Assembly (NCBI GenBank): GCA_015183035.1 | Contig: JACZZP010000009.1 | Coordinates: 2,294,001 to 2,358,000, forward strand | DNA: 64,000 nucleotides | Direction: 5' to 3' | From: Meloidogyne chitwoodi | Lineage: Eukaryota; Nematoda; Chromadorea; Rhabditida; Meloidogynidae | Part shown: piece by piece, positions 34,568-50,938 of the stretch | Layout: the number at the start of each line of letters is the position of its first letter | Position numbering within the stretch: the stretch's first letter is position 1 | Made by a program: the position numbers and the translations under genes | The notes under the pieces: generated by a model | What the model was told of the DNA's origin: nothing | Database searches by the model: none | The model's input: only the letters and a program-made list of their open reading frames with translations

Positions 34568-34614
34568 TAATGGATAATTTTAAGAGGAAATCAAGACCTT
34601 TTGAATGATTTGAT

Positions 34615-34638
34615 TGATAGGTACATATGTACCTATCA
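34615..34638. promoter_or_regulatory. 24-bp perfect palindrome in the TIR
   Basis: A perfect inverted repeat centred on CATATG, with core AGGTACATATGTACCT. It is also present in the right TIR (53550-53573) and in copy 2 (55745-55768). It could be a dimeric protein-binding site; no function is known. Confidence 0.6.
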
Positions 34639-35393
34639 TAAATGATTGACAGGGTAATGATTGATTGATAATTTGATTAATTCTCTGGATCTACCCCTCC
34701 CCCAATATAATTGATCTTTCTGGGTTCCAGATATTTTTTGGATTCCAGTTATTTTTTAAAAACTATTTTTCGCGTGCGAATGATCTAGGAATAATACAGT
34801 ATACATTTAAATAAATTAATTAAAATTAAATAAAAATTAAATTAAAAAATAAATTATTATTAAAGATAGGGGAGGAGATAAAAAAGTCGAAAATCATTAA
34901 AAATAAAAAAATGATTTTTTGATCTTGGGAGGGATAAGAAAATAAGCTCTTTTTGGATTATACCAACATTCCTTATATTATTACCATTTCAAAATATCAA
35001 ACTTACATAATATCAAAAAGTCAAAATGCCAACTGTTTAAATGATCAAATTTTTAAAATACCAAGTGATATTATTATGGGTGATCTTTTGGGTTCTACAT
35101 TTATTTTTTGAATTATTTTTCGCGCGCGGTGGCATTTTTTAGCGCTTGACCTTGATCAGATAAAAGCGTGAATAAAATAAAAAAATTCCGTTTTTTATTT
35201 AAATTTTCTTTTCCAGATCTTATCTTGATTCGTGAATAAAAATACTTTCTTTTAATTTAAAAATATTTTTGAAAATTGGGTTTGTGGTGATCTTTTGGGT
35301 ATTTTCTGTGGTGATCTTCTGGGTGTGCTATAATTTAAAGTATTCTAGAACGACTGACCTTGAACATACCAATAAATTACTCGAAAGCAGGAG

Positions 35394-35400
35394 TATAAAA
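35394..35400 (+). promoter_or_regulatory. TATA box of PolB
   Basis: GAGTATAAAAGC lies 80 bp before the PolB start codon. A TGACCTTGA motif lies at 35355-35363. The same AGTATAAAAGC context and the same 5'-UTR style precede the paralogous gene at 39768. Confidence 0.7.
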
Positions 35401-35473
35401 GCCGAGGTTTTTTGTCATTCTTTATCATTCTTCCTTCTCAATTAAAAACTTAAAAACTCAATTAAATTTAAAA

Positions 35474-36568
35474 ATGTCTTTTAATAATTGTCCTCCAGCT
35501 AGCAAGCGACCACGCTTCTTTATACAAAATGTGGTACCTCACCTATTTATTCAAGAAGGTTCTGGTACTGAAAATTTTAATAAATATTATAGACAAATAG
35601 ATTATGAATCTGACTACAGCAGAAAATTTAAAATGATGAAAACAACTGGAAAATTTATTATTGAAAAAATACCTGAAAATCCAGAGGAATTACTAAGAAA
35701 AATAATGAAAGAATGCATGGATAAAACCATCAAAGAATCGAGAAATAAATCAATTGAGCCGGATCATTTAGGTGCTCTAATTTCTTCAAAATTATTAGAC
35801 AACGATATATGGATACCAATTAGAAAAATTCAAGAAGATACTATTGAAAACATTTTAACTCGTTTTCAACTTGTTTCGCAATCAAAAATAGAAAAAGGAT
35901 CGCTTCTTGGACAGCCATTTACAATAACTTTTCAGACACTTGGTGTCTCTTCTCTACCAACGAATTCTTCAATTAGTGGTCGAGCACCACGAGAATCAAC
36001 AAATTTAAGTATTCGGATAAATGACGCTAGTTTAATAAAAATTAAAAACCAAAACAACTTATGCCTTTTTTATGCTCTAGAAATAGCTAAAAAATATGCT
36101 ACAAAAGAATTAGGTGATAGAAGAAAATTTTCCGACTATTTGAATTATGAGCACCGTCAATTGAAGGATGTTTTTAATCTTCTAAAAGATACAAAAATAC
36201 CAAATGATCTTCCGGAATATGATGCTGTGAAATTTGTACCCACCATCGTCGACTTTTGGAACAACAAATATAAAAATTCAGGATTTAAGTTCAAAGTTTT
36301 TGTTTTTGGAAGTGATAGCGAAAAGCCGAAATTTAAATATGGAAGTGATAATTTCAACTTACCAATATCAATTTATCACTCAAATAATCATTTTGATGGA
36401 ATAAGGAATGTTGGAGGGATGTTCGAATCGGGCTTTAAGTATTGTTTTGAATGTGAGAAGTGTTATAGAAAGGCAAAGGAACATGACACTAGATGTAAAG
36501 CACTCTGTCACCTTTGTGGACGAATTGGGAGTGATAGACCATGTTTGGCGACAGGCGACTTTTTTTAA
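35474..36568 (+). CDS. PolB: Polinton PolB, N-terminal part: OTU-like region and zinc-binding motifs
   Basis: 364 residues forming the front of the Polinton DNA polymerase. Residues 1-155 are a lysine-rich, helical-looking region duplicated as a separate gene at 39768. From about residue 190 comes NNLCLFYALE and later SNNHFDGI, resembling the Cys- and His-containing motifs of OTU-type papain-fold proteases in arthropod Polinton polymerases (family knowledge; catalysis unproven). Then come Cys/His pairs (CFECEKCY, RCKALCHLCG). The frame ends with TTT TTT TAA, and the same frame continues at once with KCDECGKKY, part of the same zinc-binding series. The TAA thus interrupts a single protein. The identical stop is in copy 2. 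Confidence 0.85.
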   Translation: MSFNNCPPASKRPRFFIQNVVPHLFIQEGSGTENFNKYYRQIDYESDYSRKFKMMKTTGKFIIEKIPENPEELLRKIMKECMDKTIKESRNKSIEPDHLGALISSKLLDNDIWIPIRKIQEDTIENILTRFQLVSQSKIEKGSLLGQPFTITFQTLGVSSLPTNSSISGRAPRESTNLSIRINDASLIKIKNQNNLCLFYALEIAKKYATKELGDRRKFSDYLNYEHRQLKDVFNLLKDTKIPNDLPEYDAVKFVPTIVDFWNNKYKNSGFKFKVFVFGSDSEKPKFKYGSDNFNLPISIYHSNNHFDGIRNVGGMFESGFKYCFECEKCYRKAKEHDTRCKALCHLCGRIGSDRPCLATGDFF

Positions 36569-36595
36569 AAATGTGATGAATGTGGAAAAAAATAT

Positions 36596-39500
36596 TTGAA
36601 TGATGATTGTTTCAAACATCACTTGGCAAGTAGCCATTGCCGACGTTCAAAGCAGTGTGATAAATGTGGAGTAATTTGGTCGTTAAAAAATTATAAAAGA
36701 GAACAATCAAAAAAACATATTTGCGGACAAAAGTGGTGCAAAATTTGTATACAATTTCATAGCATGAATAGAGGTTGCTTTATTCGACCACTAGAAATCA
36801 AAAAGTCAATACCCTATCGATTGGTTACATTCGATTTTGAGGCAACACAAAATGAACTGGTCAAGGAAGCTGGTAAAGAAGAAAAGCGGTTGCACAAAGT
36901 AAACTTCGTAGCAGCTATAGTCACTTGCACAAAATGTATGGAAGATGGACAATTATGGCGTTCACCTCTAAAACAAAATAAAAAATATTGCACAATTTGC
37001 GGAACATATCGATCAATAACATTTTCGCATCAACCTTTTACTCTTACAAAGGTTGATGAACAACGAATTACTGAAACACCATTAAAAGATTTTGTACATT
37101 GGATTCTTTTTGAACTTAACCAGCAATATACAACACTAGCATTTTCACACTTTGGAGGGCGTTATGATATGGTCATGACCTTCAGGGAAATATATTTGGC
37201 AGGAATTGTTCCATCAATGATACGCCGTGGCAATAAACTTTATGAACTGAAAGTGCCGCGCAATAGAAAATGCAATGAAGTGATATTTCGAGACTCGTTT
37301 AATCTTTGTCCAGTCGGTCTGGGAAAGCTGGTTGGTGCATTTGGACTCAAAATTACTGAAAAACAATTTTTCCCGCATTTGGCAAATATTCCCGCAAACT
37401 ATTGTAAAACTTTGCCTCAACTACCTTCAAGAGATGATTACATTTATGGAGGAATGTCAACTGAAAAACAAATTGAATTTGATAAATGGTATGCACAAGA
37501 GAAAAATGGAACATTTTGCTTAGATGAGGCTTTAGCGGAATATTGCATAAATGACGTTCAAATACTTACAAACGCACTTATTGCCTTCAGAACAAAATTC
37601 TCAGAAATTAGCAAGCAAAAAAACTCAACTCAAGAAGAAGCACAAGGAATCGATATTTTACGAGATGCAATGACTGTAGCATCCGCCTGCATGAAACATT
37701 TTCGCCTTAATCATCTAAAAGCTGAACATCTAGCAATTGTTCCAGAAAAAGGATATGACACTTGTGATAATCAAAGTGAGCTTGCCCTCAAGTATTTACA
37801 ATGGTATGAAGAAACAAAGGGAGTTAAAATAATAAGTGCACATTCTGAAGGCGGAGAGCATAAAGTAGGAAAATTCAAGGTCGACGGATATATTGAAGAA
37901 GAAGATAGAGCAATAGAAGTGAATGGTTGTGTTTGGCATGCCTGCCAAAAATGTTTTGGCGACGACCTTGAAAAAATATTACCAAATGGAAAGACAATTG
38001 AAGAAACACGTGTAAATGATGAAAATCGACTTTTGATTTTAAGAAAACACATAAAGAATGTTGACGTCATATGGGAATGTGAGATACATAAAATGCTTCG
38101 TCGCAATAGAAATATGAGAAAAGCTTTTGCAAATTATCACGACAAAGGCCCAATAAAAATGAGAGATTGCTACTTTGGTGGCAGAACTGGACCAGCCCAA
38201 CTGTACTTTGACGCAGATAAAGAACAACATAAAATTTCATACCTGGACTTCAATTCACTTTACCCCTCAACAATTGCTACAACATCATTCCCGGTTGGAC
38301 ACCCAAAAATACATGTTGTGCCATTTGATGAGCAAAAAGTAAATTGGACTAAAAGCGAGCAAATTCCATTCAAAGGAATTTTGAAAGTATTTATTAATCC
38401 ACCACCGAAACTGGAAGTCCCTGTAATTCCAGTCAAATTTGATGACCGTCTTCTTTTCCCATTATGCAGAAAATGCTCACTCGCATATCCAAATGGCGCA
38501 AACATCAAAAATTATCTCTGCCCGCACAATGATGATGAAAGAGGATGGGTCTCAACTTGCACGTCAATAGAATTAGAAGAGGCATTAAAAGTTGGATATC
38601 GAGTAAGCAGATTTTACAGAGCATTGCATTATGAGAATTGGGATGACCAATTATTCAAAAACTATGTAGCCGAATTTATGGCAATGAAAATTCATGCTAG
38701 TGGTTTTCCTGAAGGAATAATTGGTAAAGAAAATGAAGATAAATTTATGTTGGAATGTAAAGAAAGATTTGGAATTGAAGTTCAAAGAGAAAAAATGGTG
38801 CCAGACAAAGCAATGCGGTACATCTCAAAATTAATGCTGAATTCTCTTTGGGGTCGGTTCAGCCTTAGAAATACATTGTCAAAAAGTGTAATAACCGACT
38901 CGCCTAATGAACTGCGCGAATATGCTACTAATTTTTCGATTGAATTACAATCGATAGACAAATTAACTGAAGAGACTGCTTTAATAACATACAAGCAAAA
39001 AGAAGAGTTCATCGTTGAACATGACACTTCAAATATCACTGTTTCATTATGGACAACGTCAGCAGCAAGAATTAGGCTATTGAAAGCAATGCAAAAGGTC
39101 GCTGGTTCGACAGGATGTAACATTCTCTATGGGGACACCGACAGCATACTTTTTTCGCATCCAAAGGACATGGAATGTCCTCTTCAGACAGGTCCCCACC
39201 TGGGCGATTTGGCGAGAGAATATGTTGGATATGATATTAAGGAATATGTTGGCGGTGCGTGTAAGGCTTATGGACTAAAAATGGAAAGTGATAAAAATGC
39301 AAAAATCAATACTGTATTAAAAGTGCGCGGAATTACCTTAACTGTTGACACTTGCAAGATTTTGCACTTTGAAAACTTCAAAGAAAGTGTTCTTCAATAT
39401 GCAAACGGTGAAAATGAAGAGAGCGAGGAAGATGTTGAAATTGATAGACGAAGAATTATTGTAGAAAATTCAAATTTTTTACGACCTAATGTGAAGGAAG

Positions 39501-39598
39501 GAAGGATTTACTCAACAGGGATGAAAAAGATGTTTAGACCTATCATTCAAAAAGGTATTATTTCAAACCACAAAATTGTACATTTCGGACAAAAATAA
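36596..39598 (+). CDS. PolB: Polinton family-B DNA polymerase, exonuclease and polymerase part
   Basis: About 1000 residues of the protein-primed-type DNA polymerase that replicates the element. From the first ATG here, Exo I is TFDFEAT (Asp80, Glu82), Exo II is GGRYDMVM (Asp191) and Exo III is YCIND (Tyr316-Asp320). Motif A is DFNSLYPS (from Asp551), motif B is KLMLNSLWG (745-753) and motif C is YGDTDS (845-850). Between Exo III and motif A lies the nuclease-like insertion typical of Polinton polymerases (GKFKVDGY, then IEVNGCVWHACQKC). All catalytic residues are present. It is in the same frame as the N-terminal part; only the TAA at 36566 separates them. It is either one protein made by readthrough or a mutated gene. 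The ATG at 36596 is only nominal, because homology to the zinc-binding series begins upstream. Confidence 0.95.
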   Translation: MNDDCFKHHLASSHCRRSKQCDKCGVIWSLKNYKREQSKKHICGQKWCKICIQFHSMNRGCFIRPLEIKKSIPYRLVTFDFEATQNELVKEAGKEEKRLHKVNFVAAIVTCTKCMEDGQLWRSPLKQNKKYCTICGTYRSITFSHQPFTLTKVDEQRITETPLKDFVHWILFELNQQYTTLAFSHFGGRYDMVMTFREIYLAGIVPSMIRRGNKLYELKVPRNRKCNEVIFRDSFNLCPVGLGKLVGAFGLKITEKQFFPHLANIPANYCKTLPQLPSRDDYIYGGMSTEKQIEFDKWYAQEKNGTFCLDEALAEYCINDVQILTNALIAFRTKFSEISKQKNSTQEEAQGIDILRDAMTVASACMKHFRLNHLKAEHLAIVPEKGYDTCDNQSELALKYLQWYEETKGVKIISAHSEGGEHKVGKFKVDGYIEEEDRAIEVNGCVWHACQKCFGDDLEKILPNGKTIEETRVNDENRLLILRKHIKNVDVIWECEIHKMLRRNRNMRKAFANYHDKGPIKMRDCYFGGRTGPAQLYFDADKEQHKISYLDFNSLYPSTIATTSFPVGHPKIHVVPFDEQKVNWTKSEQIPFKGILKVFINPPPKLEVPVIPVKFDDRLLFPLCRKCSLAYPNGANIKNYLCPHNDDERGWVSTCTSIELEEALKVGYRVSRFYRALHYENWDDQLFKNYVAEFMAMKIHASGFPEGIIGKENEDKFMLECKERFGIEVQREKMVPDKAMRYISKLMLNSLWGRFSLRNTLSKSVITDSPNELREYATNFSIELQSIDKLTEETALITYKQKEEFIVEHDTSNITVSLWTTSAARIRLLKAMQKVAGSTGCNILYGDTDSILFSHPKDMECPLQTGPHLGDLAREYVGYDIKEYVGGACKAYGLKMESDKNAKINTVLKVRGITLTVDTCKILHFENFKESVLQYANGENEESEEDVEIDRRRIIVENSNFLRPNVKEGRIYSTGMKKMFRPIIQKGIISNHKIVHFGQK

Positions 39599-39643
39599 TT
39601 TCACTATATATTTTTAATTTTATATAAATATTTAAATTAAAAT

Positions 39644-39699
39644 TGACCTTCAAATGTTAAAATAATCTTAGTCACAACCAGAAAAATGGTAGTATAAAA
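39644..39699 (+). promoter_or_regulatory. Promoter of the PolB N-terminal paralogue
   Basis: TATAAAA at 39693-39699 lies 75 bp before the ATG, in the same AGTATAAAAGC context as the PolB promoter. An imperfect TGACCTTCA lies at 39644. The resemblance of both promoters and both N-termini shows that the duplication included the promoter. Confidence 0.65.
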
Positions 39700-39767
39700 G
39701 CAAAAGATTTTACCTTTATTCATTCATTCTTAAAATAAAACCTAAAAATTTATTTAAATTTTTAAAA

Positions 39768-40385
39768 ATGTCTTTTAATAATGGTCCTTCAGCTAAAAAA
39801 CGACCACACTTTATAGAAAATTTACTACCTCATCTATTTATTCAAGAGGGTGGCTGTACTGAAAATTTAAATAAATATTATAGTCAAATTTATTATGAAG
39901 TTGACTGCAACATAAAATTTAAAATCGTGAAAACTATTTCAAAATTTATTATTGAAAAAATATCTCATAATTCGGAAGAAATATTAAGAATAATTATCAA
40001 AAAATGTTTTGATAAAATTATCAAGGAGTCTAGAAGTAGATTAATTGAACCTGATCGACTAGGAGCACACATTTCTTCACAATTGTTAGGCAAAGATATA
40101 TTGATATCATTTAGTAAAATTGAAAAAGGTACAATTGATAACATTTTAATGCAAGTTCAAAATGCTTTAGATTCAAAAATAGGAGTATTACTTGCTGGTC
40201 AGCAGTTAAAAATAACACTTCAGACACTAAGTATCTCTTCACTTCCGAAAAAGTTCAACAATCGTAATTTTAAAATAGTTAAGAACAGACGAGAAAGAAG
40301 GAGGGATTTATTCAAAAAGCATGGTATTGCTTCAGATATATTATATGAAGATGTATTATTTGAAACCTCAAAATTGCACATTTAA
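39768..40385 (+). CDS. Stand-alone paralogue of the PolB N-terminal region
   Basis: 205 residues. The first about 155 residues align closely with the PolB N-terminus: both start MSFNN, then KRP, PHLFIQEG, TEN(F/L)NKYY and KFIIEKI, and both carry LGAxISSxLL and (I/L)xISSLP. It lacks the OTU-like and zinc regions and ends in a basic tail (NRRERRRDLFKKHG). It is a partial duplication of PolB with its own TATA promoter. It might compete with or assist the polymerase N-terminus, for instance by binding the same partner, or act as a small DNA-binding protein (inference). It is intact and identical in both copies, so it is probably functional rather than a remnant. The function of this domain is not known to me. 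Confidence 0.75.
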   Translation: MSFNNGPSAKKRPHFIENLLPHLFIQEGGCTENLNKYYSQIYYEVDCNIKFKIVKTISKFIIEKISHNSEEILRIIIKKCFDKIIKESRSRLIEPDRLGAHISSQLLGKDILISFSKIEKGTIDNILMQVQNALDSKIGVLLAGQQLKITLQTLSISSLPKKFNNRNFKIVKNRRERRRDLFKKHGIASDILYEDVLFETSKLHI

Positions 40386-40683
40386 TTCACCATTTATTTT
40401 TATATTATTATAAATTTGTGAAATAAAATTATAAAAATATTAAGGTTTACAAGATGAAATTTTTAAAATATTAAGGGCTTAGGATGAATTTATTAAAAAT
40501 TAAGAAATATAAGTTAATTTTCATTAAAAATTAAGAAATAAAGATGAAATTTAAGAAAAATTAAGGGAAAGAAGATAGAGATTTTAGGGGTAAAAATACA
40601 ATATTAAGGGATAGAAGATGAAATTTCAAAAAAATTAAGAAAAGAAAAACATTTTTCAAAAAAATTAGTAGAAATAAATGTAA
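40386..40683. other. AT-rich convergent intergenic region with degenerate repeats
   Basis: 298 bp between two convergent genes. It contains several degenerate copies of a GATGAAATTT...AAATTAAG(G/A) segment of roughly 35-45 bp. No reading frame is convincing. It must hold the 3' ends of both flanking transcripts. Confidence 0.5.
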
Positions 40684-41295
40684 TTAATCGAAAAATATGA
40701 GTATATTTCGCTTTTCCCACTGATTGGGACAGCCATCTACCTCCATCCATACAATGCCAGGTCTAGATTTCCTAGGGGTGGGTGAAGGGGTGATCGATGT
40801 ACTCAAGGATAGAGGATCACTAGAAATACTTGATGTTGAAATTGACCAAGTAGCTTGGGTTCGTCTCAACGTTTGAGAGCAGATTGTTGAAGACGACGAT
40901 GAATTTGTGCGAGGGATGAAACGTAAAAGTTCCAATGGATAATACTTTTGACATATTCCTCCATCTGATGTACTTGTTCTTTCAATAATACATTGATGAA
41001 AGGGGTAAAGCAGACGAATCTTGTGATGAGCAAAAAAATATGCGGCAATTGAAATATTAAAGGGATAGCTCAGGTCTCCGAATGCTTTTATTAAATGTGC
41101 CCCAGCTGTGCTAACTCCACTGCAATTAATCATTCTTCTCTGACCATTTCTGTCTTGGTATGTAGTTTCAAGCGGTCCATTTTCTTTTATATATTTTGCG
41201 ATTATATCTACATTTTCCTGATACATAAGCCTATATCTTACTAAATAAACGGGACAATTTAATTTTTTTGAAATTTCTTCAAGAATAGAGCTCAT
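40684..41295 (-). CDS. PAZ-domain-like protein
   Basis: 203 residues; I read residues about 28-127 as a PAZ-like domain. Visible PAZ hallmarks, in the right order and spacing, are LETTYQDRNGQRR (an early strand, like the TTY...RR of Argonautes), ISIAAYFFAHHKIRLLYP (compare the V.YF...Y.I.L.YP core of Argonaute PAZ) and KYYPLELLRFI (compare YLPLELC.I). PAZ domains bind the 3' end of small RNAs in Argonaute and Dicer. No PIWI, MID or RNase III part is present. Residues 132-175 are a Ser/Thr-rich low-complexity linker, followed by a short C-terminal piece with WMEVDG. A plausible role is to sequester siRNA or piRNA ends and suppress host silencing (inference). It is transcribed divergently from 41543 with its own TATA box and is identical in copy 2. 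The assignment rests on motif reading only. Confidence 0.65.
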   Translation of the reverse strand: MSSILEEISKKLNCPVYLVRYRLMYQENVDIIAKYIKENGPLETTYQDRNGQRRMINCSGVSTAGAHLIKAFGDLSYPFNISIAAYFFAHHKIRLLYPFHQCIIERTSTSDGGICQKYYPLELLRFIPRTNSSSSSTICSQTLRRTQATWSISTSSISSDPLSLSTSITPSPTPRKSRPGIVWMEVDGCPNQWEKRNILIFFD

Positions 41296-41345
41296 TTTTT
41301 ATGATTGATTAATTTAAAATGAGCTTTTGATCTTGAAATTTGCCC

Positions 41346-41369
41346 TTTTATACTTGAGCTTGACCTTGA
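41346..41369 (-). promoter_or_regulatory. TATA box and TCAAGGTCA site of the PAZ-like gene
   Basis: On the - strand, TATAAAAG (41352 down to 41346) lies about 55 bp before the ATG. TCAAGGTCA (41369 down to 41361) sits directly upstream. TCAAGGTCA matches the extended half-site bound by FTZ-F1/ERR-type nuclear receptors. The same 9-mer precedes PolB (35355) and lies in both TIRs. Confidence 0.55.
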
Positions 41370-41437
41370 AAATCTAGACAAGCCAATTACACATATTACT
41401 CTGAGTGAATTTTTGGAATATAGAATTTAATAAGGTT

Positions 41438-41467
41438 AGGCTCCACCCATTTTTTCTGAGTATAAAT
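41438..41467 (+). promoter_or_regulatory. Promoter module A (CTCCACCCAT + TATAAAT)
   Basis: AGGCTCCACCCATT is followed by TCTGAGTATAAATA. The same arrangement, one base different in the CTCC box and slightly shorter in the T run, occurs at 42098-42126. The TATA lies 82 bp before the ATG at 41543. Confidence 0.7.
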
Positions 41468-41542
41468 ATCCGAAAATTTTCCCATCATTAAATCATTTTC
41501 ATTTTTAAAATATTATTAAAAACATTATTATTAAAATTAAAT

Positions 41543-41950
41543 ATGAATACACCACCGCAACAAGTACAAGAAAATCAACAAGAAATTGAAGAAATTCCAA
41601 AAGATGAAGATATTATAGAAGTAAAAGTTGAAAAGAAAGATGATAAAATCAGTAAATTAAGTAATACGCCTTCAACTTCGGCTCGGGGAAAAATTGAAAA
41701 GAAAAACGGGGTCAATTCTCGCATGCTTTGGAAGCTTGTACGAATGAAATATATTCCTAGGATTGAAATCCGTCTCTGCAAAAAATGTGCAAACGCACTC
41801 TACTACAACAAAAATAAATTTAGTGAAAAGGACAATGGAAAGATTGGGATAAGCTTTGACCTTTGTGAAAATTGTGCAAAGCTTAATATGAGTCTCAAGG
41901 ACTTTCTATGTGAATGGGATGAAAAGAATGAGATGACTGAGAAAAAATGA
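41543..41950 (+). CDS. Small acidic/basic protein with paired CxxC motifs
   Basis: 135 residues, not a family I recognise. The N-terminal 40 residues are acidic and Gln-rich and contain DEDIIEVKVE, which fits a SUMO-interaction motif pattern (hydrophobic core with acidic flanks). After a basic Ser/Thr stretch, CKKC (79-82) and CENC (108-111) form a likely zinc ribbon or treble-clef-like unit. With its own TATA promoter and position among the non-structural genes, it could be an early regulatory protein (inference). Identical in copy 2 (62674-63081). Confidence 0.75.
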   Translation: MNTPPQQVQENQQEIEEIPKDEDIIEVKVEKKDDKISKLSNTPSTSARGKIEKKNGVNSRMLWKLVRMKYIPRIEIRLCKKCANALYYNKNKFSEKDNGKIGISFDLCENCAKLNMSLKDFLCEWDEKNEMTEKK

Positions 41951-42097
41951 TGAATTAAGAAAATTTTAACTTCTTAAAATTTAATATTATTTTTATTTTT
42001 ATTATTGTATTTTTATTTTTAATTAAATAAATTTGTTTATAATTACTATTTTCTATTATTACTAGTTTAAAACTAGGGCTTTAGTATTAATATTATA

Positions 42098-42126
42098 AGG
42101 CTCCGCCCATTCTCTGAGTATAAATA
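42098..42126 (+). promoter_or_regulatory. Promoter module B (CTCCGCCCAT + TATAAATA)
   Basis: AGGCTCCGCCCATT, then CTCTGAGTATAAATAG, nearly identical to module A. TATA at 42119-42126 is 76 bp before the ATG at 42195. Two genes with one promoter type are probably expressed together. Confidence 0.7.
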
Positions 42127-42194
42127 GTCAAAATTTTTCATAGAAATTAAATTCTAAGCAAAATTCAAAATCACTAATTCAGTTCCACCTTAAA

Positions 42195-42731
42195 ATGGCA
42201 TTAATCACGACTAAAGAACAATTAATTGAAAAAATGATTCCCGAGGTCACATTCACTACATCATCAACCGGAATAACTATTTCATCAGCACGTCTTAACA
42301 CTTCACGCTTTATTGAATATGATTTTATTGGAAAGTGTCGAAATTGTAAAGGAGAAAGTATTGACATTGACTTTATCGTCACTCCAAGAAGTGTAACTTT
42401 GTACTGTAATCGTATGAAATCCGAAAAAGTTATTTTATTTGATAATTTTTATGAAATTCCACAATACTGCATTTTTCGACTGAAAGCGAAAGGTAAATGC
42501 TACAACGTCATGCACAATGTACAGCAGACGGCAGAGTCACATTTTAACAAAGGAACTGGACAATTGACTATAGAGGAATTTTTGACGACGATAGCTCAAA
42601 AGAAGGAAGAAGTTGTGGAATCTTACGGAAAAGAGAAAACTGATAATGGAGAATCATGCGGAATAGAACAAGAAAAAATTTTTGAAGGGGATGAACTAGG
42701 TACAGATACATTCCTTCATAATATTCCTTAA
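42195..42731 (+). CDS. Unknown 178-residue Cys-containing protein
   Basis: I do not recognise this protein. The first about 130 residues look folded, with alternating hydrophobic strands. They contain CRNC (48-51) and a later C (71), a possible single zinc site. The C-terminal 45 residues are acidic and Lys/Glu-rich and probably disordered. It shares a promoter type with the gene before it and lies 67 bp upstream of the ATPase, which has its own weak TATA-like box. Identical in copy 2 (63326-63862). Confidence 0.75.
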   Translation: MALITTKEQLIEKMIPEVTFTTSSTGITISSARLNTSRFIEYDFIGKCRNCKGESIDIDFIVTPRSVTLYCNRMKSEKVILFDNFYEIPQYCIFRLKAKGKCYNVMHNVQQTAESHFNKGTGQLTIEEFLTTIAQKKEEVVESYGKEKTDNGESCGIEQEKIFEGDELGTDTFLHNIP

Positions 42732-42737
42732 TCATTT

Positions 42738-42744
42738 TATAAAT
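42738..42744 (+). promoter_or_regulatory. Possible TATA box of the ATPase gene
   Basis: TTTATAAATTT lies 61 bp before the ATPase ATG, at the spacing seen for the other genes. In DNA this AT-rich the match may be accidental. Confidence 0.4.
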
Positions 42745-42798
42745 TTTAACATTTTTCTTTACCATTTTATTCATTTCTATCCTTTCTATTAATCAATC

Positions 42799-43479
42799 AT
42801 GAATTATCAAATATATTCGAATAAAGACTTGAAACTTAAATTACCATTTGGTTGTATTATAAGCGGACCCAGTTCAAGCGGTAAAAGTACTTTTGTACAA
42901 AAATTAATTCTTAATTCAACTCAGTTAATTGACCCACCGCCCAAAGAAATTCTCTATTGCTATGGTGAATATAACCCACTTGTACCAATATTACAAAATG
43001 CTGGAGTCTTCATTTATTCAGGAGTCCCCCCAGAGGACCTCATTAAAAGATTGTCGAAGCCTGCCCTTGTTATTCTAGATGATTTGATGTATTCGATTGA
43101 CGAAAAATATTTATCTGAACTTTTCACTAAAAAATCTCACCACCTTAATTTTGGCATAGTATTCATCACACAGAATCTATTTGAAAAAAGACTTAAAGTA
43201 GCGAGGCAGAACTCTATGTATATTGTATTAGCACGCGCTCCTAATAATGCGCTTTCCATTAGAAATCTTGGTGTTCAACTATTCCCTGGAAGACTAAATT
43301 ATTTTCTTGACGCATATCAACAGGCTACTCATACTAATTATTCCTATCTATTTATCGATCTACACCCTTCATCAGATAATACATTAAGGCTAAGAACAAA
43401 TATATTTAAGGAAGAATCAGAAGACCCAGATATCAGTCCTTATACTATTATATTTCTACCCAAAAATTTCTCTCTATAA
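42799..43479 (+). CDS. ATP: A32/FtsK-HerA-type genome-packaging ATPase
   Basis: 226 residues, the usual length for Polinton packaging ATPases. Walker A is GPSSSGKST (23-31), Walker B is ALVILDDLM (89-97) with Asp94-Asp95, and a downstream FITQN (123-127) is the expected sensor strand. By family knowledge it pumps element DNA into preformed capsids. It is followed after 5 bp by a small protein gene, so the two may share a transcript. Intact here; in copy 2 only the first 71 bases lie in the window. Confidence 0.95.
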   Translation: MNYQIYSNKDLKLKLPFGCIISGPSSSGKSTFVQKLILNSTQLIDPPPKEILYCYGEYNPLVPILQNAGVFIYSGVPPEDLIKRLSKPALVILDDLMYSIDEKYLSELFTKKSHHLNFGIVFITQNLFEKRLKVARQNSMYIVLARAPNNALSIRNLGVQLFPGRLNYFLDAYQQATHTNYSYLFIDLHPSSDNTLRLRTNIFKEESEDPDISPYTIIFLPKNFSL

Positions 43480-43484
43480 ATAAA

Positions 43485-43835
43485 ATGTCTTCAAATATCT
43501 GTCAAATTGTCAAGGACAATTTTCCTTTTATTAAACAACTTGCAAACACTCGCTCATTGAGGAAGAGAAAGAGACTTTTAAAGAAGGCAACAAACAATCA
43601 ATTACTTTCTATTACCGAAGTTTGTTTAAATATTGTGCGTAATAGATTTCCTTTAACAAAGAGACAAAAATACCGCCTTCTCCCATTCGCTGATTTTGTC
43701 CGAAAAGTGAGTAGAATAAGAACAGAGAGAGGAGCCCGACATACTGTAGTACAAAAAGGCAGTGGACTACCAATAGGAATTTTCCCCGCCTTACTTACAC
43801 CAATCATTATTGAACTAGCTAAAAATCTTATTTAA
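43485..43835 (+). CDS. Small basic protein with C-terminal hydrophobic segment, virion-associated type
   Basis: 116 residues. The N-terminal half is very basic (SLRKRKRLLKK), with a conserved middle (LLSITEVCLNIVRNRFPLT). The end is a glycine-containing hydrophobic segment (GSGLPIGIFPALLTPIII). Proteins of this shape are common next to the ATPase in Polintons and adintoviruses and are usually considered minor virion or core proteins; I recall no demonstrated function. It starts 5 bp after the ATPase stop. It may bind packaged DNA through the basic half and membranes through the hydrophobic end (inference). Confidence 0.75.
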   Translation: MSSNICQIVKDNFPFIKQLANTRSLRKRKRLLKKATNNQLLSITEVCLNIVRNRFPLTKRQKYRLLPFADFVRKVSRIRTERGARHTVVQKGSGLPIGIFPALLTPIIIELAKNLI

Positions 43836-43850
43836 AAATAACTAGAAGAG

Positions 43851-44684
43851 ATGGCCAATAAATTTATTCTTGTCCCAGAAGATATATATCATGGACTTAT
43901 TACTCAACCTTTACCAAATACTGGAAATATTAATTTGGATTACACCAGAAAAAATTTAGAAGATGTTAAAAGGCAACACACAAATTTAGAGACTAAAAAT
44001 ATCAATTACAATCAAGAATTAAGAAGATATTTACACATGTTGAAAGAGCAAAATGATACTCCGATGAATGTATCAGTAAGGAAAATGGAAGATCCAGCAA
44101 TTGAACAGATCAAAAATATATTGCCTTTTTTATCCTCATCTAGTAACGAAGACAATCAAATGCATAAAAATATTTCAAATACCAATACTAGAAATACTGT
44201 GGTCGTCCCTTCTCCAAAAAGTGATAATTCTGGCTTTATAGATGATGAAATTAGAATACACACAGAAGAAGAATCTCCTGAAGATAAGCTTAAACCATTA
44301 CCCTCTAATATAAAAGAAAAAACAAGGGAAATATTAGATTTTATGAAAGAAAACCTTGAAAAATATAATGTGAACCCCGACGGTAAAATTCTAAATAAAA
44401 TTGGTGGAAGAGAAATCTTAGGAAGTAATGCTCAAAAATCAATAGAATGCATTCTTCGAACTGGAATCAGAGGGAAATTGAGATGGGGTGAAATAACACC
44501 GCCTGGAACAGAAGAGTTAGAGGAAAAACTAAAAAAGGATAAGAAAATTTGGTCTTTAATAGAAAAGCTTAGAGAGAATTCTACTCTAAAACGTATTTCA
44601 ACAAAGCATAAACGTAAATTAGGAGAATCAAGCCAAATAACAGACTCAAAATGGAGAACTCCAACTCTATGGAAAAAATATTAA
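43851..44684 (+). CDS. Conserved Polinton protein upstream of integrase, unknown function
   Basis: 277 residues, starting MANKFILVPEDIY, an N-terminus seen in Polinton proteins of this position. Residues 30-70 are predicted coiled coil (charged heptad-like). The middle is a low-complexity Ser/Asn stretch. The C-terminal part has a small conserved core (GGREILGSNAQKSIECILR) and a basic end. Its last 34 bp overlap the integrase frame. It is probably a structural or scaffolding protein, since it lies between virion genes (inference). Confidence 0.7.
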   Translation: MANKFILVPEDIYHGLITQPLPNTGNINLDYTRKNLEDVKRQHTNLETKNINYNQELRRYLHMLKEQNDTPMNVSVRKMEDPAIEQIKNILPFLSSSSNEDNQMHKNISNTNTRNTVVVPSPKSDNSGFIDDEIRIHTEEESPEDKLKPLPSNIKEKTREILDFMKENLEKYNVNPDGKILNKIGGREILGSNAQKSIECILRTGIRGKLRWGEITPPGTEELEEKLKKDKKIWSLIEKLRENSTLKRISTKHKRKLGESSQITDSKWRTPTLWKKY

Positions 44685-45748
44685 ATAAACTTTATAACGA
44701 CCCAGCAAATCCTGCAGGATTCGCAGGTTTAAATCAATTATGGATTGAGGCAAAGAAAAAAGACCCAAGAATAAGAAGAAAAGATGTAAAGACATATTTG
44801 GAGGGTCATAGGACATATACTCTACATCGTCCTCGTCGGGTACACTTTAAGAGATCAGTAACATACCCAGCTGGCTACATGACCGATGTTCAGTGTGATC
44901 TTGCAGATTTTCAAAAATTGTCACGTCAAAATAATGGAAATAATTATGCACTTGTTGCAATAGATGTTTTGAGTAAAAGGGTATTTGCTGAACCAGTTCG
45001 CACCAAAAAATCAAAAGATATGATTAAGGCATTTGAAAAAATTTTATCGAAAATGGAAATGTATCCTCATCGCATATTTAGTGATAAGGGAAAAGAATTT
45101 ACAAGTAAGGAAATTATGGATTTTTTCAAAGAAAAGGATATAGAAAAATACATACCAAATGCATCGGTAGTCAAGGCATCTTTGGCAGAACGTTGTATTA
45201 GAAATTTAAAACAGAGATTATATCGATTTATGAGTGAGAAGCATACATTAAAATGGACTGAGGCATTATCAAAGATAGTTAATTCGATAAATCATTCTAA
45301 GTGTCGGGTTCTTGGAGGATTAAGACCTGTCGATGTTAGCTTTAATAATGCAAAAAATGTTCGTGAATTTGTATTTGGTCCAGTCGGTAGTAAGCATTCA
45401 CGGAAAAAACCACGCTTCAATGAAAATGACTATGTGAGAATGAGCCGAAATAAAAATGTGTTCGCAAAAGGCTATCTCCCCAATTACAGCGATGAAATTC
45501 TTCAGATAGATCGTGTAAAAAATAAAGCCAATCCAAACAGATACAGAATTCGCGATGACAAAGGTGAACTTTTCAAAGGATATTTTTACCCGGAAGAACT
45601 GACTAGAGTAAGAAAAGATAAGAATACAAGCTATAGAATCGAAAAAGTCATTAAGAGTCGCAAGAAAAAAGATGGAGGAAAAGAATATTATGTTAAATTT
45701 TTAGAATACCCAGAACCTGAGTGGATAGACGAAAAATATTTTGTATAA
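44651..45748 (+). CDS. INT: Retroviral-type DDE integrase with C-terminal chromodomain
   Basis: 365 residues. An N-terminal helical region is followed by the RNase-H-fold core. Asp83 in QCDLADF, Asp145 in FSDKGKEF and Glu180 in KASLAERCIRN form the D,D(~35)E triad. Residues about 328-365 (YRIEKVIKSR...YYVKFLEYPEPEW) are a chromodomain. By family knowledge it inserts the linear element and makes the 6-bp duplication seen here. The chromodomain probably guides it to methylated-histone chromatin. Both copies sit at one satellite nucleotide, which makes targeting of special interest. The first ATG overlaps the preceding gene; a second in-frame ATG at 44669 is an equally possible start. Confidence 0.95.
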   Translation: MENSNSMEKILNKLYNDPANPAGFAGLNQLWIEAKKKDPRIRRKDVKTYLEGHRTYTLHRPRRVHFKRSVTYPAGYMTDVQCDLADFQKLSRQNNGNNYALVAIDVLSKRVFAEPVRTKKSKDMIKAFEKILSKMEMYPHRIFSDKGKEFTSKEIMDFFKEKDIEKYIPNASVVKASLAERCIRNLKQRLYRFMSEKHTLKWTEALSKIVNSINHSKCRVLGGLRPVDVSFNNAKNVREFVFGPVGSKHSRKKPRFNENDYVRMSRNKNVFAKGYLPNYSDEILQIDRVKNKANPNRYRIRDDKGELFKGYFYPEELTRVRKDKNTSYRIEKVIKSRKKKDGGKEYYVKFLEYPEPEWIDEKYFV

Positions 45749-45751
45749 ATA
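45744..45751 (+). promoter_or_regulatory. TATA box of the minor capsid gene, overlapping the integrase stop
   Basis: TGTATAAATAGG contains the integrase stop codon (GTA TAA) and lies 86 bp before the minor capsid ATG. A CTCCACCCA box, like that of the two upstream promoters but on the downstream side, lies at about 45763. Confidence 0.6.
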
Positions 45752-45829
45752 GGCAGACCTTTCCCTCCACCCAATCATATTCATTAATCTTTTTCATTTA
45801 TAATTGTAAAATTTTGCTTAATAAAATAA

Positions 45830-47914
45830 ATGGTTAATACATTCTTTGTTGTTCTTCCTAGTAATGTTAGTGACTATCCAAACAATAGACCTAATAAATA
45901 CAGAGTACATCTTCCAAAATCGATAGAATTTCAAGGAGGAAATTGGGTTTGTGGTTTATACAGTATCCAATATCCCCAATCTTGGGCTGCTACAATAGGT
46001 ACTAACGAAAAACAGTGGATACAAATTAATTACAAGCAAAAAGAAGCCTTAAAACTCGGTATACCTAAAACTACACAATTAACACCAAAAGGTCTAAGCT
46101 TCTTTCTGAAACTTGCACTAGCGAGAATACAAAGTGATACACATAGAAAAAGACGAGAGATATTGGAAGATGATATTGAAGATAATGAAATAATCATAAG
46201 TCCTGAAATTGATATAATAGGAACCCCAAGTAAAAAAAGATTGAGGAGAGAAACAATTAATCTTAGTAAGCTTGAAGAAATTCAAAAACAGGGTTTTGTT
46301 GATGGATTTTTTCTTATGCATGCCACAGACTATTGGGATGGTATTAGCACGTTCGAACACGAATTGGAAGTTCATAAACTTGATATCGAGAAAAAAACAA
46401 AAGAAATTAAAGAGGCAAAAGATCCTTATTATAAAGCTGGTCTTCAGGAACACCTTGATCATTTAAACTCATTGTCAGAAGAGAAAAAAGAAAATATAGC
46501 TATCTTAAAGGAAGAAGCTAGAAAAAGAGATAATCTTGATGAAAGACAAATTGCAAATCAATTTTTAGAAAAAAATAAAGATGATTATCATGAAAAAATT
46601 ATAGGATTGGAAGTAAATATTTTAAAAAAATATATTGCATTAATACAAAAGATTAAAGAAAGCGAAGAAGAAGGCGTAAATATTCGTTCAACTCAAGAAA
46701 TTCAAAGACTTATTACCAGAATAAAACAGATGAGAAAAAATTTACAAATATTGGAATCAGCTATTATAGAAAGAGATTTTAAAACAACCAGTGAAGAATT
46801 TCACCAGCAAAATTCAGAAAAGCATAAAGACTATGTTGAAAATTTTTTTGACAACCATCCAGAAGATCATCTGATTACGCTTGGAAAAAATTTGTACGAT
46901 TTAGAAGAATTTCATGCACAACTACGTGAAAAAAGAGATGCTCACAGCAATGAGCAAAATGAAGAGGAAAAAGAAAAACTTAGCAGAGAAATTGATGAAA
47001 AAAATAGATTATTTTTATATAGAAAACAAAGATTTATGGCAATAAGGCAAGAAGCAATTAAAAAATATTTAAAACTTGAACTCCCAATTCCACCTTCAAA
47101 TGATGATATAAAGAAGATGCAGCAAATCGAAGAGAAAACTCATCCAGAGTATTTAAAGCATGCAAGAAAAATAGATGAAGAAATACCTATTCCTCCTCCA
47201 GAAATTACACAGGAAATGACTGATGTTCTTAAAGAAAGACATAAATCCGAGCAAGAAGAAACATTTAAGCGGATCCAAAAACATATGGAAATAGTAGAAA
47301 AAGAACATGAGAAAAAAGTAGAGGACATTATTAGCAAGGATGGTCCGCAAATGCAAGATGTGGAAATATCTGATGAAGAACTCAAAGAAATAAACGAAAA
47401 TGAAAAAGAGGAACAAAAAATGCAACTATTAGCTGGAGAAAAAGATATAAAAAATAAGGAATTGTATTCTGATATTGAATTTGAATACTTGGAAAGTATT
47501 GATCGTTTTCGTATAAAATTCAATGATCCAGAAATTTTTTCAATTAATATATCATCACAACTCTGTTATGTGCTAGGTTTTCCTGCTCATGCTGCAATAA
47601 AAAATGGCCAAATTGGAAAATATGGGATTGATTTAAAGGGTGGCTTTACCAGTTTTGCAGTGTATTCAAAGGGGTTAACAAGTAGTGTAATATTGGGAAA
47701 TTCTATTAGTTCACTACTAAGAATTGTGGCTGTTGAGAATAAATCGGGAGGTGTTATAGAGAGGGTTTACGATAACCCGATGTTTATTCCTGTACAACCA
47801 AGGGAGATAAATGAAGTAGAGATTGAGTTAAGATGGATGAATGGAAATTTTGTGAAATTTGAACATGGAACTGTGATTATAACCTTAATGTTCAATAAAA
47901 TGTTAAAATTCTAA
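45830..47914 (+). CDS. mCP: Penton-like minor capsid protein with long coiled-coil insertion
   Basis: 694 residues. The N-terminal 100 residues (FFVVLPSNVSDYPNNRPNKY, then GGNWVCGLYSIQYPQSW) match the start of Polinton minor capsid proteins, which form single-jelly-roll pentons. The matching end is at about 560-694 (SSQLCYVLGF, GNSISSLLRIVAV, MFIPVQPREINEVEIELR, then FEHGTVIITL). Between them about 400 residues are almost entirely Glu/Lys/Gln/Leu with heptad-like spacing, a long coiled coil. It would project from the capsid vertex as a fibre or stalk (inference). It is unusually long for the family. It converges on the protease gene with only 16 bp between stops. Confidence 0.88.
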   Translation: MVNTFFVVLPSNVSDYPNNRPNKYRVHLPKSIEFQGGNWVCGLYSIQYPQSWAATIGTNEKQWIQINYKQKEALKLGIPKTTQLTPKGLSFFLKLALARIQSDTHRKRREILEDDIEDNEIIISPEIDIIGTPSKKRLRRETINLSKLEEIQKQGFVDGFFLMHATDYWDGISTFEHELEVHKLDIEKKTKEIKEAKDPYYKAGLQEHLDHLNSLSEEKKENIAILKEEARKRDNLDERQIANQFLEKNKDDYHEKIIGLEVNILKKYIALIQKIKESEEEGVNIRSTQEIQRLITRIKQMRKNLQILESAIIERDFKTTSEEFHQQNSEKHKDYVENFFDNHPEDHLITLGKNLYDLEEFHAQLREKRDAHSNEQNEEEKEKLSREIDEKNRLFLYRKQRFMAIRQEAIKKYLKLELPIPPSNDDIKKMQQIEEKTHPEYLKHARKIDEEIPIPPPEITQEMTDVLKERHKSEQEETFKRIQKHMEIVEKEHEKKVEDIISKDGPQMQDVEISDEELKEINENEKEEQKMQLLAGEKDIKNKELYSDIEFEYLESIDRFRIKFNDPEIFSINISSQLCYVLGFPAHAAIKNGQIGKYGIDLKGGFTSFAVYSKGLTSSVILGNSISSLLRIVAVENKSGGVIERVYDNPMFIPVQPREINEVEIELRWMNGNFVKFEHGTVIITLMFNKMLKF

Positions 47915-47930
47915 TCTTTTTTTGATATTT

Positions 47931-48392
47931 TTATTTATTTTTAATCATTTTATTAATAAATTGTGAAACAAATTCGTCTGGTTTTGGATAATGTGATAAT
48001 AGGGAAAGATATTTATCATAAGAAAATCCAGAGGAAATAAAATATATAAATGAAATACAATGTTGTCCACATGTTGACGAAATAGGGTCTTGAAGGGGAA
48101 TACTGTTTTTAATTTGAGTAGAAAATTTTGAAATAAAATTTTTAATTTGTAAGCTAAAATCGGGAAGTAATAATGAATCAAAAATAAATATTTTTTCTTG
48201 ATTTATAATAAAAAATGCAATCCAGTGTGATCCTTTTTGTCCTGCTTTTTCCGTGTTAACTACCAAAGATGAAGGATATTCTCTAAATTCTTGAGGAATT
48301 TTATCTGCTGCAAAACATCCTCTAAAATATCTTCTAGTTATCCGATTTTGATCCAAAATTTTCTCGATTTGTAAAGTGTCCATTTTCATCAA
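47931..48392 (-). CDS. PRO: Adenain-like maturation cysteine protease
   Basis: 153 residues, Ulp1/adenain family. The catalytic set is visible: His56 in GSHWIAFF, Asp72 in FIFDS, Gln101 in PLQDP and Cys108 in STCGQHC. The Gln-to-Cys spacing of 7 equals that of adenovirus protease. It would cleave capsid precursor proteins during virion maturation. The start overlaps the end of the membrane-protein gene upstream by 59 bp in another frame, so the two are probably on one transcript. A second Met at position 4 is an alternative start. Confidence 0.92.
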   Translation of the reverse strand: MMKMDTLQIEKILDQNRITRRYFRGCFAADKIPQEFREYPSSLVVNTEKAGQKGSHWIAFFIINQEKIFIFDSLLLPDFSLQIKNFISKFSTQIKNSIPLQDPISSTCGQHCISFIYFISSGFSYDKYLSLLSHYPKPDEFVSQFINKMIKNK

Positions 48393-48927
48393 AGAAGGGG
48401 ATTATTACCTTATTTGAATATTTTCTTTGTATTCCTTTTAGTTCAATTTCTTTTTTATTTTCTGTTATATTTCGAAGATTGACAAATTTTCTAAGTTGAT
48501 AAGCTAAAGCTGATGCTATAAGTAAGAACCATAGAGCAACCAGTGATACACAGTAAATAGTTTGTGCAATTGATGTTTCAGATGAAGGGAATTCTTTGCA
48601 CGGCGATGGAAATTGTACATTATTTACATGTTCCATTGCCCAGAAATCGAGGATTGTGATATTTTTTTCAGGGTTATATGATGTAGCAAGCCCAATGCTA
48701 TTTTGAACTCTTTCAGAAATTTTTGGGAATGTAGTAGAAGTTTGAATAATTTCTTTCGGGCTAGGAGGAATTGTCTTATTATAACCAATAAATTCTTTCA
48801 ATTTTTCTGTATATTCAGGATTCTCAGATTCTTTAGAAATAACAAATGATTGGGATAATTTATACAAGAAGAAAAATAGTACAACACTAATTAAACAAAA
48901 TTCGATTTTAATAGTAATGTAGCACAT
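48334..48927 (-). CDS. Two-transmembrane protein, unknown
   Basis: 197 residues. A first hydrophobic helix spans residues 8-30 and a second about 122-144. The loop between them has two N-glycosylation sequons (NKT 50-52, NIT 89-91) and a Cys just before TM2. The C-terminal 50 residues are charged. This suggests both ends in the cytoplasm and an outside or lumenal loop (inference). It lies between the major capsid and protease genes. It is far too small for the large fusogens reported in some nematode Mavericks and shows no fusion-peptide-like feature. It could be a membrane or egress factor of the virion. Confidence 0.7.
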   Translation of the reverse strand: MCYITIKIEFCLISVVLFFFLYKLSQSFVISKESENPEYTEKLKEFIGYNKTIPPSPKEIIQTSTTFPKISERVQNSIGLATSYNPEKNITILDFWAMEHVNNVQFPSPCKEFPSSETSIAQTIYCVSLVALWFLLIASALAYQLRKFVNLRNITENKKEIELKGIQRKYSNKVIIPFFDENGHFTNRENFGSKSDN

Positions 48928-48989
48928 AATATGAGCAAAATTAAGTAAATGATTTTTAAAATAAATGAAAATGAAAAATTTACGAGTAT

Positions 48990-50333
48990 TTATACTGAAA
49001 TATCTGTCGTTATAGTTCTATTCCTATCTAACATCAATAATGAATCAATTTCTCCCATTGCTATTAAGACAATCCCTCCACTTGGAACTGGTTCATTGAA
49101 GGTCAATTTTACACTTGTAGTACCATTTTTTATTAAATCGAACACTTCTGGTCCATTATCCTCTTGACTATTTGTAAGATTGAAAACAAAAAAGCAAAAT
49201 CCTGCGTTGGCATATCTAAACATAGATATGCCATTGCTTTCAGGTGTTCCTGCATATCCAATCGCTTCTTGCATGTCATGATATGCCCGCGCATACTTTC
49301 CGTTTGGAAAATCAAGGGAGTAAGGTGTTGTGGGATAAGTAACTCCTCCTGTTGTTATAGAAATATCTCTCAAATTAAAGTGACGAAAATAGAATGGTAC
49401 ATATTTTTGATGACCGACAAAGCTTCTATTATCAATCATTCCTAATATTATTCTTCTTGGGACTTGGTCCATCCATAAATTTGCGTTAAACTCCGTTCGG
49501 TGTTCGCTTATAAATAATGATTTTAATGAAGTTTTTCTCATAGGGTAGCGTGCTGGTTTTAATTCTAACTTTTTTGAAATATCGAAGGCTAGACTGTCCA
49601 TTAGTTCAATTTTCTTAACATAAAGCTTGCATGACTGGATTTCCAAGTGATATGTAGGCGCAGTATCCCATGGAGCGCTTATCAAAAATTTGGACTCGTT
49701 AGGTAATAATTCAATGTCCACTTCACATTGATTAACTAAATATCGCGGTTGATTGCAAATATCAATATCTAATTTGGCCATAAATTGAGCACTTTTAGGT
49801 TTTCCATCCTCGAAAAATAATCTCTTCCTTGATTTATAGCCATAATTAGTTTCAATTACTCCTGCAGCAGTTTGAGTATCTCCATCGTCGTAATATCCTG
49901 CTACAGAGAGATATGAATTTTTTACACTTTGCGGATAAGTGAGCTCATAATCGAAAATACTTTTATAAGCCATAAGAGAATTTCCTTCAAATACTTGGGT
50001 ACCATTTATACTCATTCGACAATTTTTCCAAATTGTGTGTCCAATGAGCTGACATATACCTACATTATCATCTTTATCTATATCAACGAGCTTTCCGTCC
50101 TTTTCTTTTTTTATTCTTAGTTCAGTAAAAATATAACATTTGGCCAAATCAATATAATTTGTTGTTGCGTGAATTTTAAAATGAAACGGGGTAATATTTA
50201 CAGGGTTAAGAGTGAGTAGTTCAATGAAAGATGAGCTGCTAATACTAACATTTGTACTGGGAGTTTCGAAAAAAGAGAGTGCATTAGTTATTGCATTTCC
50301 AGAATCACGATCAATTTTTTGATGAATGGACAT
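48990..50333 (-). CDS. MCP: Double-jelly-roll major capsid protein
   Basis: 447 residues, normal length for Polinton hexon-like proteins. Recognisable family stretches are FELLTLNPV-like SFIELLTLNPVN near the start, IGHTIWKNCRMSINGTQVFE, YKSIFDYELTYPQ, RKRLFFEDGK, QVPRRIILGMIDN and FPNGKYARAYHDMQEAIG. Trimers of this fold build the icosahedral shell. No breaks are present. It is second in the - strand virion operon-like block, 81 bp after the pX-like gene and 62 bp before the membrane protein. Confidence 0.95.
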   Translation of the reverse strand: MSIHQKIDRDSGNAITNALSFFETPSTNVSISSSSFIELLTLNPVNITPFHFKIHATTNYIDLAKCYIFTELRIKKEKDGKLVDIDKDDNVGICQLIGHTIWKNCRMSINGTQVFEGNSLMAYKSIFDYELTYPQSVKNSYLSVAGYYDDGDTQTAAGVIETNYGYKSRKRLFFEDGKPKSAQFMAKLDIDICNQPRYLVNQCEVDIELLPNESKFLISAPWDTAPTYHLEIQSCKLYVKKIELMDSLAFDISKKLELKPARYPMRKTSLKSLFISEHRTEFNANLWMDQVPRRIILGMIDNRSFVGHQKYVPFYFRHFNLRDISITTGGVTYPTTPYSLDFPNGKYARAYHDMQEAIGYAGTPESNGISMFRYANAGFCFFVFNLTNSQEDNGPEVFDLIKNGTTSVKLTFNEPVPSGGIVLIAMGEIDSLLMLDRNRTITTDISV

Positions 50334-50414
50334 TTTTAAATATTTAATAAAGACCGAAGGTATCTATTTTTTGACGTTTCTTTTTTTGAATAAGAGAGGG
50401 TCGTTTTCCAACAA

Positions 50415-50885
50415 TTATTTGATGACTATTTTCTTTTGAAAATGGTGAATTTTCCTTTTGAGGCCTTTTATACTACTTTTTCTAATGCGTAATCCTGTAC
50501 CGAACTGTTTTGGCATCCCTCCTTGCTCAAGAAGTCTATCTAAGCCACGCTTTCCCTCATTTATTACATTCTGCTTCAGATTTAATTGTGGACTTTCTTT
50601 ATCTGATTGGACATTTTCTGCATTCTCTAATATTCTCCCCCCAGTTGCTAAAGCCTCTTTAGCAACCGCTGTGCCCGCGCGTTTTGCATAAGGTAAAAGA
50701 AAGCGCCAAAAATGTCTGAGTACATCTCCGACACCACCTCCTGTTTGTCTACCGTATCCTCGTTGATAAGGAGCAAGTCCCCGGAAATAATGTATAGGCT
50801 CATTGGAGCCTTCCCCTATCTGATTAATAGAAATGTGATAATCATCATATCCAACTGTTCTGGTGTCGAATGGAATATGAACCAT
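50415..50885 (-). CDS. pX-like minor virion protein
   Basis: 156 residues. The core (HYFRGLAPYQRGYG, then GGGVGDVLRHFWRFLLPYAKRAG, then AVAKEALATGGRIL) is the Tyr/Gly-rich plus amphipathic-helix arrangement of the small protein that precedes the major capsid gene in many Polintons and adintoviruses, compared with adenovirus core or membrane-lytic proteins. The C-terminus is strongly basic. It probably binds DNA or helps membrane penetration (inference from family). Confidence 0.8.
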   Translation of the reverse strand: MVHIPFDTRTVGYDDYHISINQIGEGSNEPIHYFRGLAPYQRGYGRQTGGGVGDVLRHFWRFLLPYAKRAGTAVAKEALATGGRILENAENVQSDKESPQLNLKQNVINEGKRGLDRLLEQGGMPKQFGTGLRIRKSSIKGLKRKIHHFQKKIVIK

Positions 50886-50938
50886 GTTATGATAAATCTA
50901 TGATAATTTAATTTAAAAAATGAGCAGAAATTTGAATG

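Follow-up and report, generated by a model that had tools for sequence, protein, structure and literature searches.

A lone Argonaute-type L1-linker and PAZ protein of Meloidogyne chitwoodi Polintons: a candidate suppressor of RNA silencing

Small RNAs silence transposons in nematodes. The closest described counterpart of the gene reported here is the L1-linker and PAZ portion of Argonaute (residues 227–350 of human AGO2; PF02170), the part of the silencing machinery that grips 3′ ends. Virus-encoded suppressors of the GW/WG kind are exemplified by P1 of sweet potato mild mottle virus (SPMMV), a serine protease with GW motifs (PMC2904775), while nematode Polintons, also known as Mavericks, carry the cargo genes wosp and krma (PMC10680173). 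Here we describe a Polinton gene for a lone PAZ protein, located in a 64,000-nucleotide stretch of Meloidogyne chitwoodi DNA (assembly GCA_015183035.1, contig JACZZP010000009.1, positions 2,294,001–2,358,000; hereafter "the window", meaning this whole stretch). The same family includes the lone proteins that UniProt/NCBI entries for Meloidogyne, Heterodera, and Globodera call 'PAZ domain-containing proteins'. The best explanation of the gene is an ancient capture of the L1-linker plus PAZ piece from Argonaute by the Polintons of plant-parasitic nematodes, followed by its retention as a regular gene of the element.

Compared with its Argonaute counterpart, the lone PAZ has no N, MID, or PIWI domain that we could find, carries an extra C-terminal tail, is encoded by a mobile element, and is changed at the positions of H271, K335, and F294 of human AGO2. 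It shares with SPMMV P1 its residence in a virus-like element, and 21 of the 41 family members counted as ending in tryptophan (Trp) have a GW end; the available portion of the P1 account mentions the serine protease and GW motifs and no PAZ, unlike our protein (PMC2904775). The trait it has in common with wosp and krma, as far as the available account of these goes (PMC10680173), is that of a host-derived gene on a nematode Polinton; unlike that cargo, it co-diverges with the Polinton polymerase gene, pPolB, and lies near 33 of 37 pPolB loci.

The gene occupies 40684..41295 on the minus strand and encodes 203 a.a., as judged from the open reading frame (ORF), a Pfam scan, a family profile, and a predicted structure; the plus strand across the same interval contains many stops. 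All three PAZ-type sequence blocks named in the initial annotation are found in this ORF, and the second gene copy that it called identical (61815..62426, minus strand) does have the same DNA. Codons 1–131 (40903..41295, minus strand) cover the Argonaute L1-linker helices (residues 4–39) and the PAZ fold, with Y46, Y86, and H91 as predicted pocket residues. These are followed by a Ser/Thr-rich linker (codons 132–171, 40783..40902, minus strand) that is predicted to be disordered (predicted local distance difference test <50 at 132–171), and by a beta hairpin at the C terminus that contains W179 and W193 (codons 177–201, 40693..40767, minus strand), seen in the predicted structure and similar to the ends of relatives. 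Such a W-containing hairpin is typical of the subfamily to which the window protein belongs. The gene is divergent from an ORF at 41543, and the 247 bp between the two leave room for a candidate promoter. The Pfam scan returned PAZ as the sole match of the window protein (E 0.0015, residues 80–130), at 18.9 bits versus a cut-off of 28.8; neither this protein nor the aligned members from its own genome gave MID, PIWI, or RNase III, in agreement with the initial annotation. Taken alone, the window protein does no more than suggest a PAZ.

The family as a whole represents the L1-linker and PAZ portion of Argonaute, with homology far beyond chance. We aligned 19 members from this genome (identical and truncated copies excluded; L024 entering as an open frame that lacks a start Met), and all 19 matched PAZ (best E 5.1e-9), as did 17/17 members of a wider set. 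Lone-PAZ frames of the genome score up to 37.1 bits over profile positions 15–110, and many family members exceed the curated PF02170 cut-off that the window member does not reach. A profile built from the 19 members retrieved 27 PDB sequences, which were Argonautes without exception (best E 1e-6). The predicted structure likewise contains the PAZ fold, and its residues 1–130 match the Argonaute L1-linker helices together with PAZ, so that the PAZ identity first proposed was borne out by profile and structure and its extent proved too narrow. A Dicer origin is not favored, given that the PDB profile matches are solely Argonautes and that the structural match spans the Argonaute L1 linker; the candidate host Dicer lies elsewhere in the genome (PAZ at C1:1141259 with RNase III at C1:1143412). 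The host gene scoring highest on the family profile, at C28:1693640 (38.5 bits), has a PIWI exon at C28:1692057, and host PAZ exons are fragmentary. One could still suppose a chance likeness or a passenger fragment of a host gene, as the window protein stays under the Pfam cut-off and retrieves no Argonaute from PDB; the family profile, the fold, and the selection tests reject chance and, together with the co-divergence described below, contradict this explanation, which we regard as very improbable indeed. No viral relatives of the lone PAZ were found in BFVD (E ≤ 0.001), IMG/VR, or phage records, absences that do not exclude relatives.

Residence in Polintons was assessed across the 47.5 Mb (30 contigs) of this genome. 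We counted 51 lone-PAZ loci from all 35 rows of one search and 18 hand-merged entries from the genome search for a second group, excluding from the latter rows already among the 35 and the host Argonaute row C28:1693649; a few of the counted entries are short, weak fragments. A total of 48 loci lie within 12 kb of pPolB or of a gene for a 447-a.a. putative capsid protein; the area so defined covers 3.4% of the genome. Of the three exceptions, C25:897259 (L006) nevertheless has other Polinton ORFs alongside. Conversely, a lone PAZ occurs within 12 kb of 33/37 pPolB loci and 43/54 loci of the 447-a.a. gene, and none of the 51 loci has a PIWI exon within 12 kb. Other Polinton ORFs adjoin the lone PAZ at all 28 fetched loci (L001–L028), where it commonly sits just past the 3′ end of pPolB. 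The gene is thus Polinton-encoded, as first annotated, with terminal inverted repeats (TIRs), pPolB, integrase, protease, and ATPase around it and recurring at other loci; rather than an isolated case, it is one among 51 counted loci of its kind. The second, deeply diverged lone-PAZ group (e.g., L029:427-933, Pfam PAZ E 1.7e-5) stands beside a diverged set of the 447-a.a. gene. Three PAZ exons above the Pfam cut-off, C25:530607, C11:462069, and C11:624827 (L043–L045), were left uncounted; they have no PIWI match on their contigs and no Polinton markers nearby, and may be diverged Argonautes. We also observed head-to-head Polinton pairs in which the pPolB genes oppose each other and the PAZ genes lie close to the junction (L025, L027, and L028), listed at C6:110779-141050, C12:2246339-2257453, and C26:1779114-1790207, which are either replication products or assembly artefacts.

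The PAZ part of the gene is under purifying selection: the ratio of nonsynonymous to synonymous divergence (dN/dS) was 0–0.24 in 13/15 pairs, which are partly non-independent, with dS saturated in the other two and >1 in four more. In the tail, dN/dS is higher, some diverged tail pairs reaching 0.6 to about 1.1. Across the 16 aligned members with a usable pPolB end piece, PAZ identity followed pPolB identity (r 0.86, p 1e-4); since these include near-identical copies, the test with nine representatives (r 0.76, p 0.0043) gives the safer figure. Because the PAZ co-diverges with pPolB and is near most pPolB loci, it looks like a standing gene of the element more than recent cargo, and recent passenger cargo is not favored.

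We mapped the positions that we take to form the 3′-end binding pocket of human AGO2 (H271, F294, Y311, F312, H316, K335, and Y338) by sequence alignment onto 57 sequences, comprising 12 own-genome members and 45 of 50 database proteins. The H316 position is His in 57/57 and the H271 position Tyr in 57/57; at the Y311 position, 40 sequences have His, 16 (including the window protein) Tyr, and one Phe; at the F312 position, 51 have Phe and six Tyr; and at the Y338 position, 55 have Tyr or Phe. The positions of C327, P340, and E342 are invariant, and in the numbering of the window protein, T44, Y46, H91, C102, P120, and E122 are unchanging throughout. The 3′-end pocket looks kept but modified. 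A purely structural role, in which the PAZ fold would serve as a protein–protein or virion module that binds no nucleic acid, might explain why the K335 and F294 positions are altered, but it sits poorly with the six unchanging residues, and we think it improbable.

The C-terminal tails were counted in 84 distinct proteins with lengths of 150 a.a. or more, with groups assigned partly by hand: 19 fall in an environmental clade, 17 in the W-containing hairpin group, and 48 outside both. An exact C-terminal Trp, in most cases preceded by an acidic run, ends 41 of these 48, with a mean of 11 acidic versus four basic residues among the last 45 of the Trp-ended members. Terminal Trp is present in 16/18 Heterodera and 6/8 Globodera proteins, frequently preceded by GRxECSQ, and in 70/156 of all database proteins. 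Such an acidic Trp end can be read as resembling either an Argonaute hook or the polymerase-contact end of a single-stranded DNA-binding protein (SSB); a GW end does not occur in the window's subfamily. In bacterial SSB and T7 gp2.5, an acidic tail with an aromatic end contacts the polymerase. This brings in the main rival explanation, that the OB-like fold of the PAZ acts as a single-strand or 3′-end DNA-binding protein in protein-primed replication, with the acidic, aromatic-ended tail contacting the polymerase. The presence of a lone PAZ within 12 kb of 33/37 pPolB loci, its usual placement just past pPolB, the co-divergence with it, the tail composition, and a weak resemblance of the single sequence to replication factor A (E 0.62) all speak for such an accessory. 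The invariant His of the RNA 3′-end pocket, the origin of the piece in the silencing machinery, and the absence of the acidic Trp tail from the window's own subfamily speak against it, and we consider it unlikely, though the strongest of the rivals.

The best reading in our view, one we hold at about even strength, is that the detached PAZ interferes with host small RNAs, because the gene encodes the part of the silencing machinery that grips 3′ ends, the His of its pocket is invariant in the alignment, and Meloidogyne has siRNA, WAGO, and miRNA Argonautes. The free PAZ would take the 3′ ends of host small interfering RNAs (siRNAs), WAGO-bound small RNAs, or microRNAs (miRNAs) away from host Argonautes, or would compete for the place of PAZ within Argonaute or Dicer complexes; by either step, the element would be silenced less. 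The C-terminal module (an acidic Trp tail in many members, the W hairpin in the window's subfamily) may further serve to dock the protein onto a partner, with the Trp pockets of Argonaute as one possible site, in the manner of viral GW/WG suppressors. In the available portion of a survey of M. incognita and M. hapla, ALG-1/2, RDE-1, and WAGO types are reported and no orthologue of PRG-1/2 or ERGO-1 (PMC5934874). The realistic targets are siRNAs, WAGO-bound small RNAs, and miRNAs; Piwi-interacting RNA (piRNA) ends, which the initial annotation had offered beside siRNA ends, are unlikely and not favored, as that survey finds no PRG-1/2 or ERGO-1 orthologue. At least two Polinton groups in this genome, deeply diverged from each other, have kept the lone PAZ, and relatives of it occur in three genera of plant-parasitic nematodes. 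A more tentative proposal, held at somewhat under even strength, is that it would represent a novel class of silencing suppressor, in which the 3′-end grip of Argonaute was captured, freed from the slicer, given a docking tail (often Trp-ended), and aimed at an siRNA-type pathway. Alternatively, the protein might put host small RNAs to positive use, carrying them or tethering Argonaute to the transcripts or chromatin of the element, for instance in copy-number control or the exclusion of related elements; the conserved pocket and tail and the numerous related copies sharing one genome would suit this role, but it demands more assumptions than blocking, and it appears as improbable as a structural role.

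Several observations weigh against interference with host small RNAs. The place of the gene beside pPolB is equally apt for a role in replication, and no signature of an arms race is seen in the PAZ part. In the pocket, 30 of the 57 sequences have Glu at the K335 position, 12 have Cys, eight Lys, and four Asp (46/57 for Glu, Cys, or Asp), and 53/57 have Ala at the F294 position, where the residue that follows is Tyr or Phe in all 57; with both altered, the binding specificity may therefore differ. The window's subfamily has no terminal Trp, nor do the second Polinton group or most members of the environmental clade, and many matches of that second group contain stops, from introns or decay. 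A lone PAZ is lacking within 12 kb of 4/37 pPolB loci and 11/54 loci of the 447-a.a. gene. Finally, the window protein searched as a single sequence against PDB found no Argonaute at E ≤ 10, and its sole match at that threshold was the replication factor A chain noted above.

Among databases, in searches that restrict candidate length to 0.55–1.75 of the query, we recovered 156 distinct proteins of 108–253 a.a. Named relatives come from M. hapla, M. enterolobii, M. graminicola, M. incognita, Heterodera schachtii, H. trifolii, Globodera rostochiensis, and G. pallida; those nearest to the window protein are from Meloidogyne, with a M. hapla relative 71% identical along its full length. They are labelled 'PAZ domain-containing protein', 'hypothetical', 'unnamed', 'uncharacterized', and once 'Effector protein', names that carry no Polinton link; the last is that of the H. 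trifolii relative P0144, where it is only a label in the source. The large environmental clade (P0047–P0070 and others) is mostly without a Trp end. The initial annotation knew of no earlier description of such a Polinton gene, and we likewise found none in the consulted portions of the literature on Polintons or Mavericks with PAZ or Argonaute, on nematode Polintons, and on Meloidogyne PAZ, priority being uncertain.

The Polinton that hosts the gene (copy 1) extends over 34600..53588 and is bounded by 643-bp TIRs (34600-35242 and 52946-53588); a second copy begins at 55730 with a TIR copy (55730-56372) and runs past the window end (55730..64000). In copy 1, pPolB (DNA_pol_B_2, E 2.2e-43; 36596..39598, plus strand) has its 3′ end toward the PAZ gene, and is followed on the same strand by a packaging ATPase-like gene (Adeno_IVa2, 24.7 bits versus a cut-off of 21; 42799..43479) and an integrase (rve, 39.3 bits versus 32.6; 44651..45748) with a chromodomain-like tail (Chromo, 22.1 bits, below the cut-off of 25.1). 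On the minus strand lie an adenain-like protease (Peptidase_C5, 25 bits versus 21.3; 47931..48392) and the 447-a.a. protein (48990..50333), which from its position and likeness we take to be the putative Polinton capsid. The latter had no support in Pfam, NCBIfam, phage records, or IMG/VR, and a single chance-level row in PDB (E 0.51); pPolB and the protease were also matched in fetched loci containing its gene. No relative of the Polinton polymerase was found in IMG/VR, an absence that does not exclude relatives. In the second copy, pPolB is broken into two frames (57726-60729) and the PAZ gene is intact. Beside the PAZ gene of copy 1, a 205-a.a. ORF (39768-40385) is 61% identical to the start of the ORF upstream of pPolB (35474-36568). 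A 78-a.a. stand-alone chromodomain protein (51754-51990; Chromo, 35.7 bits) adds another chromatin-related domain to that of the integrase tail. A 72-bp satellite (~2571-34500 and 53900-55500; 460 copies in one family listing) flanks the first Polinton and parts it from the second.

The lone PAZ is a standing Polinton gene descended from the silencing machinery. As a natural stand-alone PAZ protein, it could aid the study of 3′-end recognition. For the persistence of Polintons in nematodes, an element gene derived from the small-RNA grip of Argonaute offers a direct and testable candidate.
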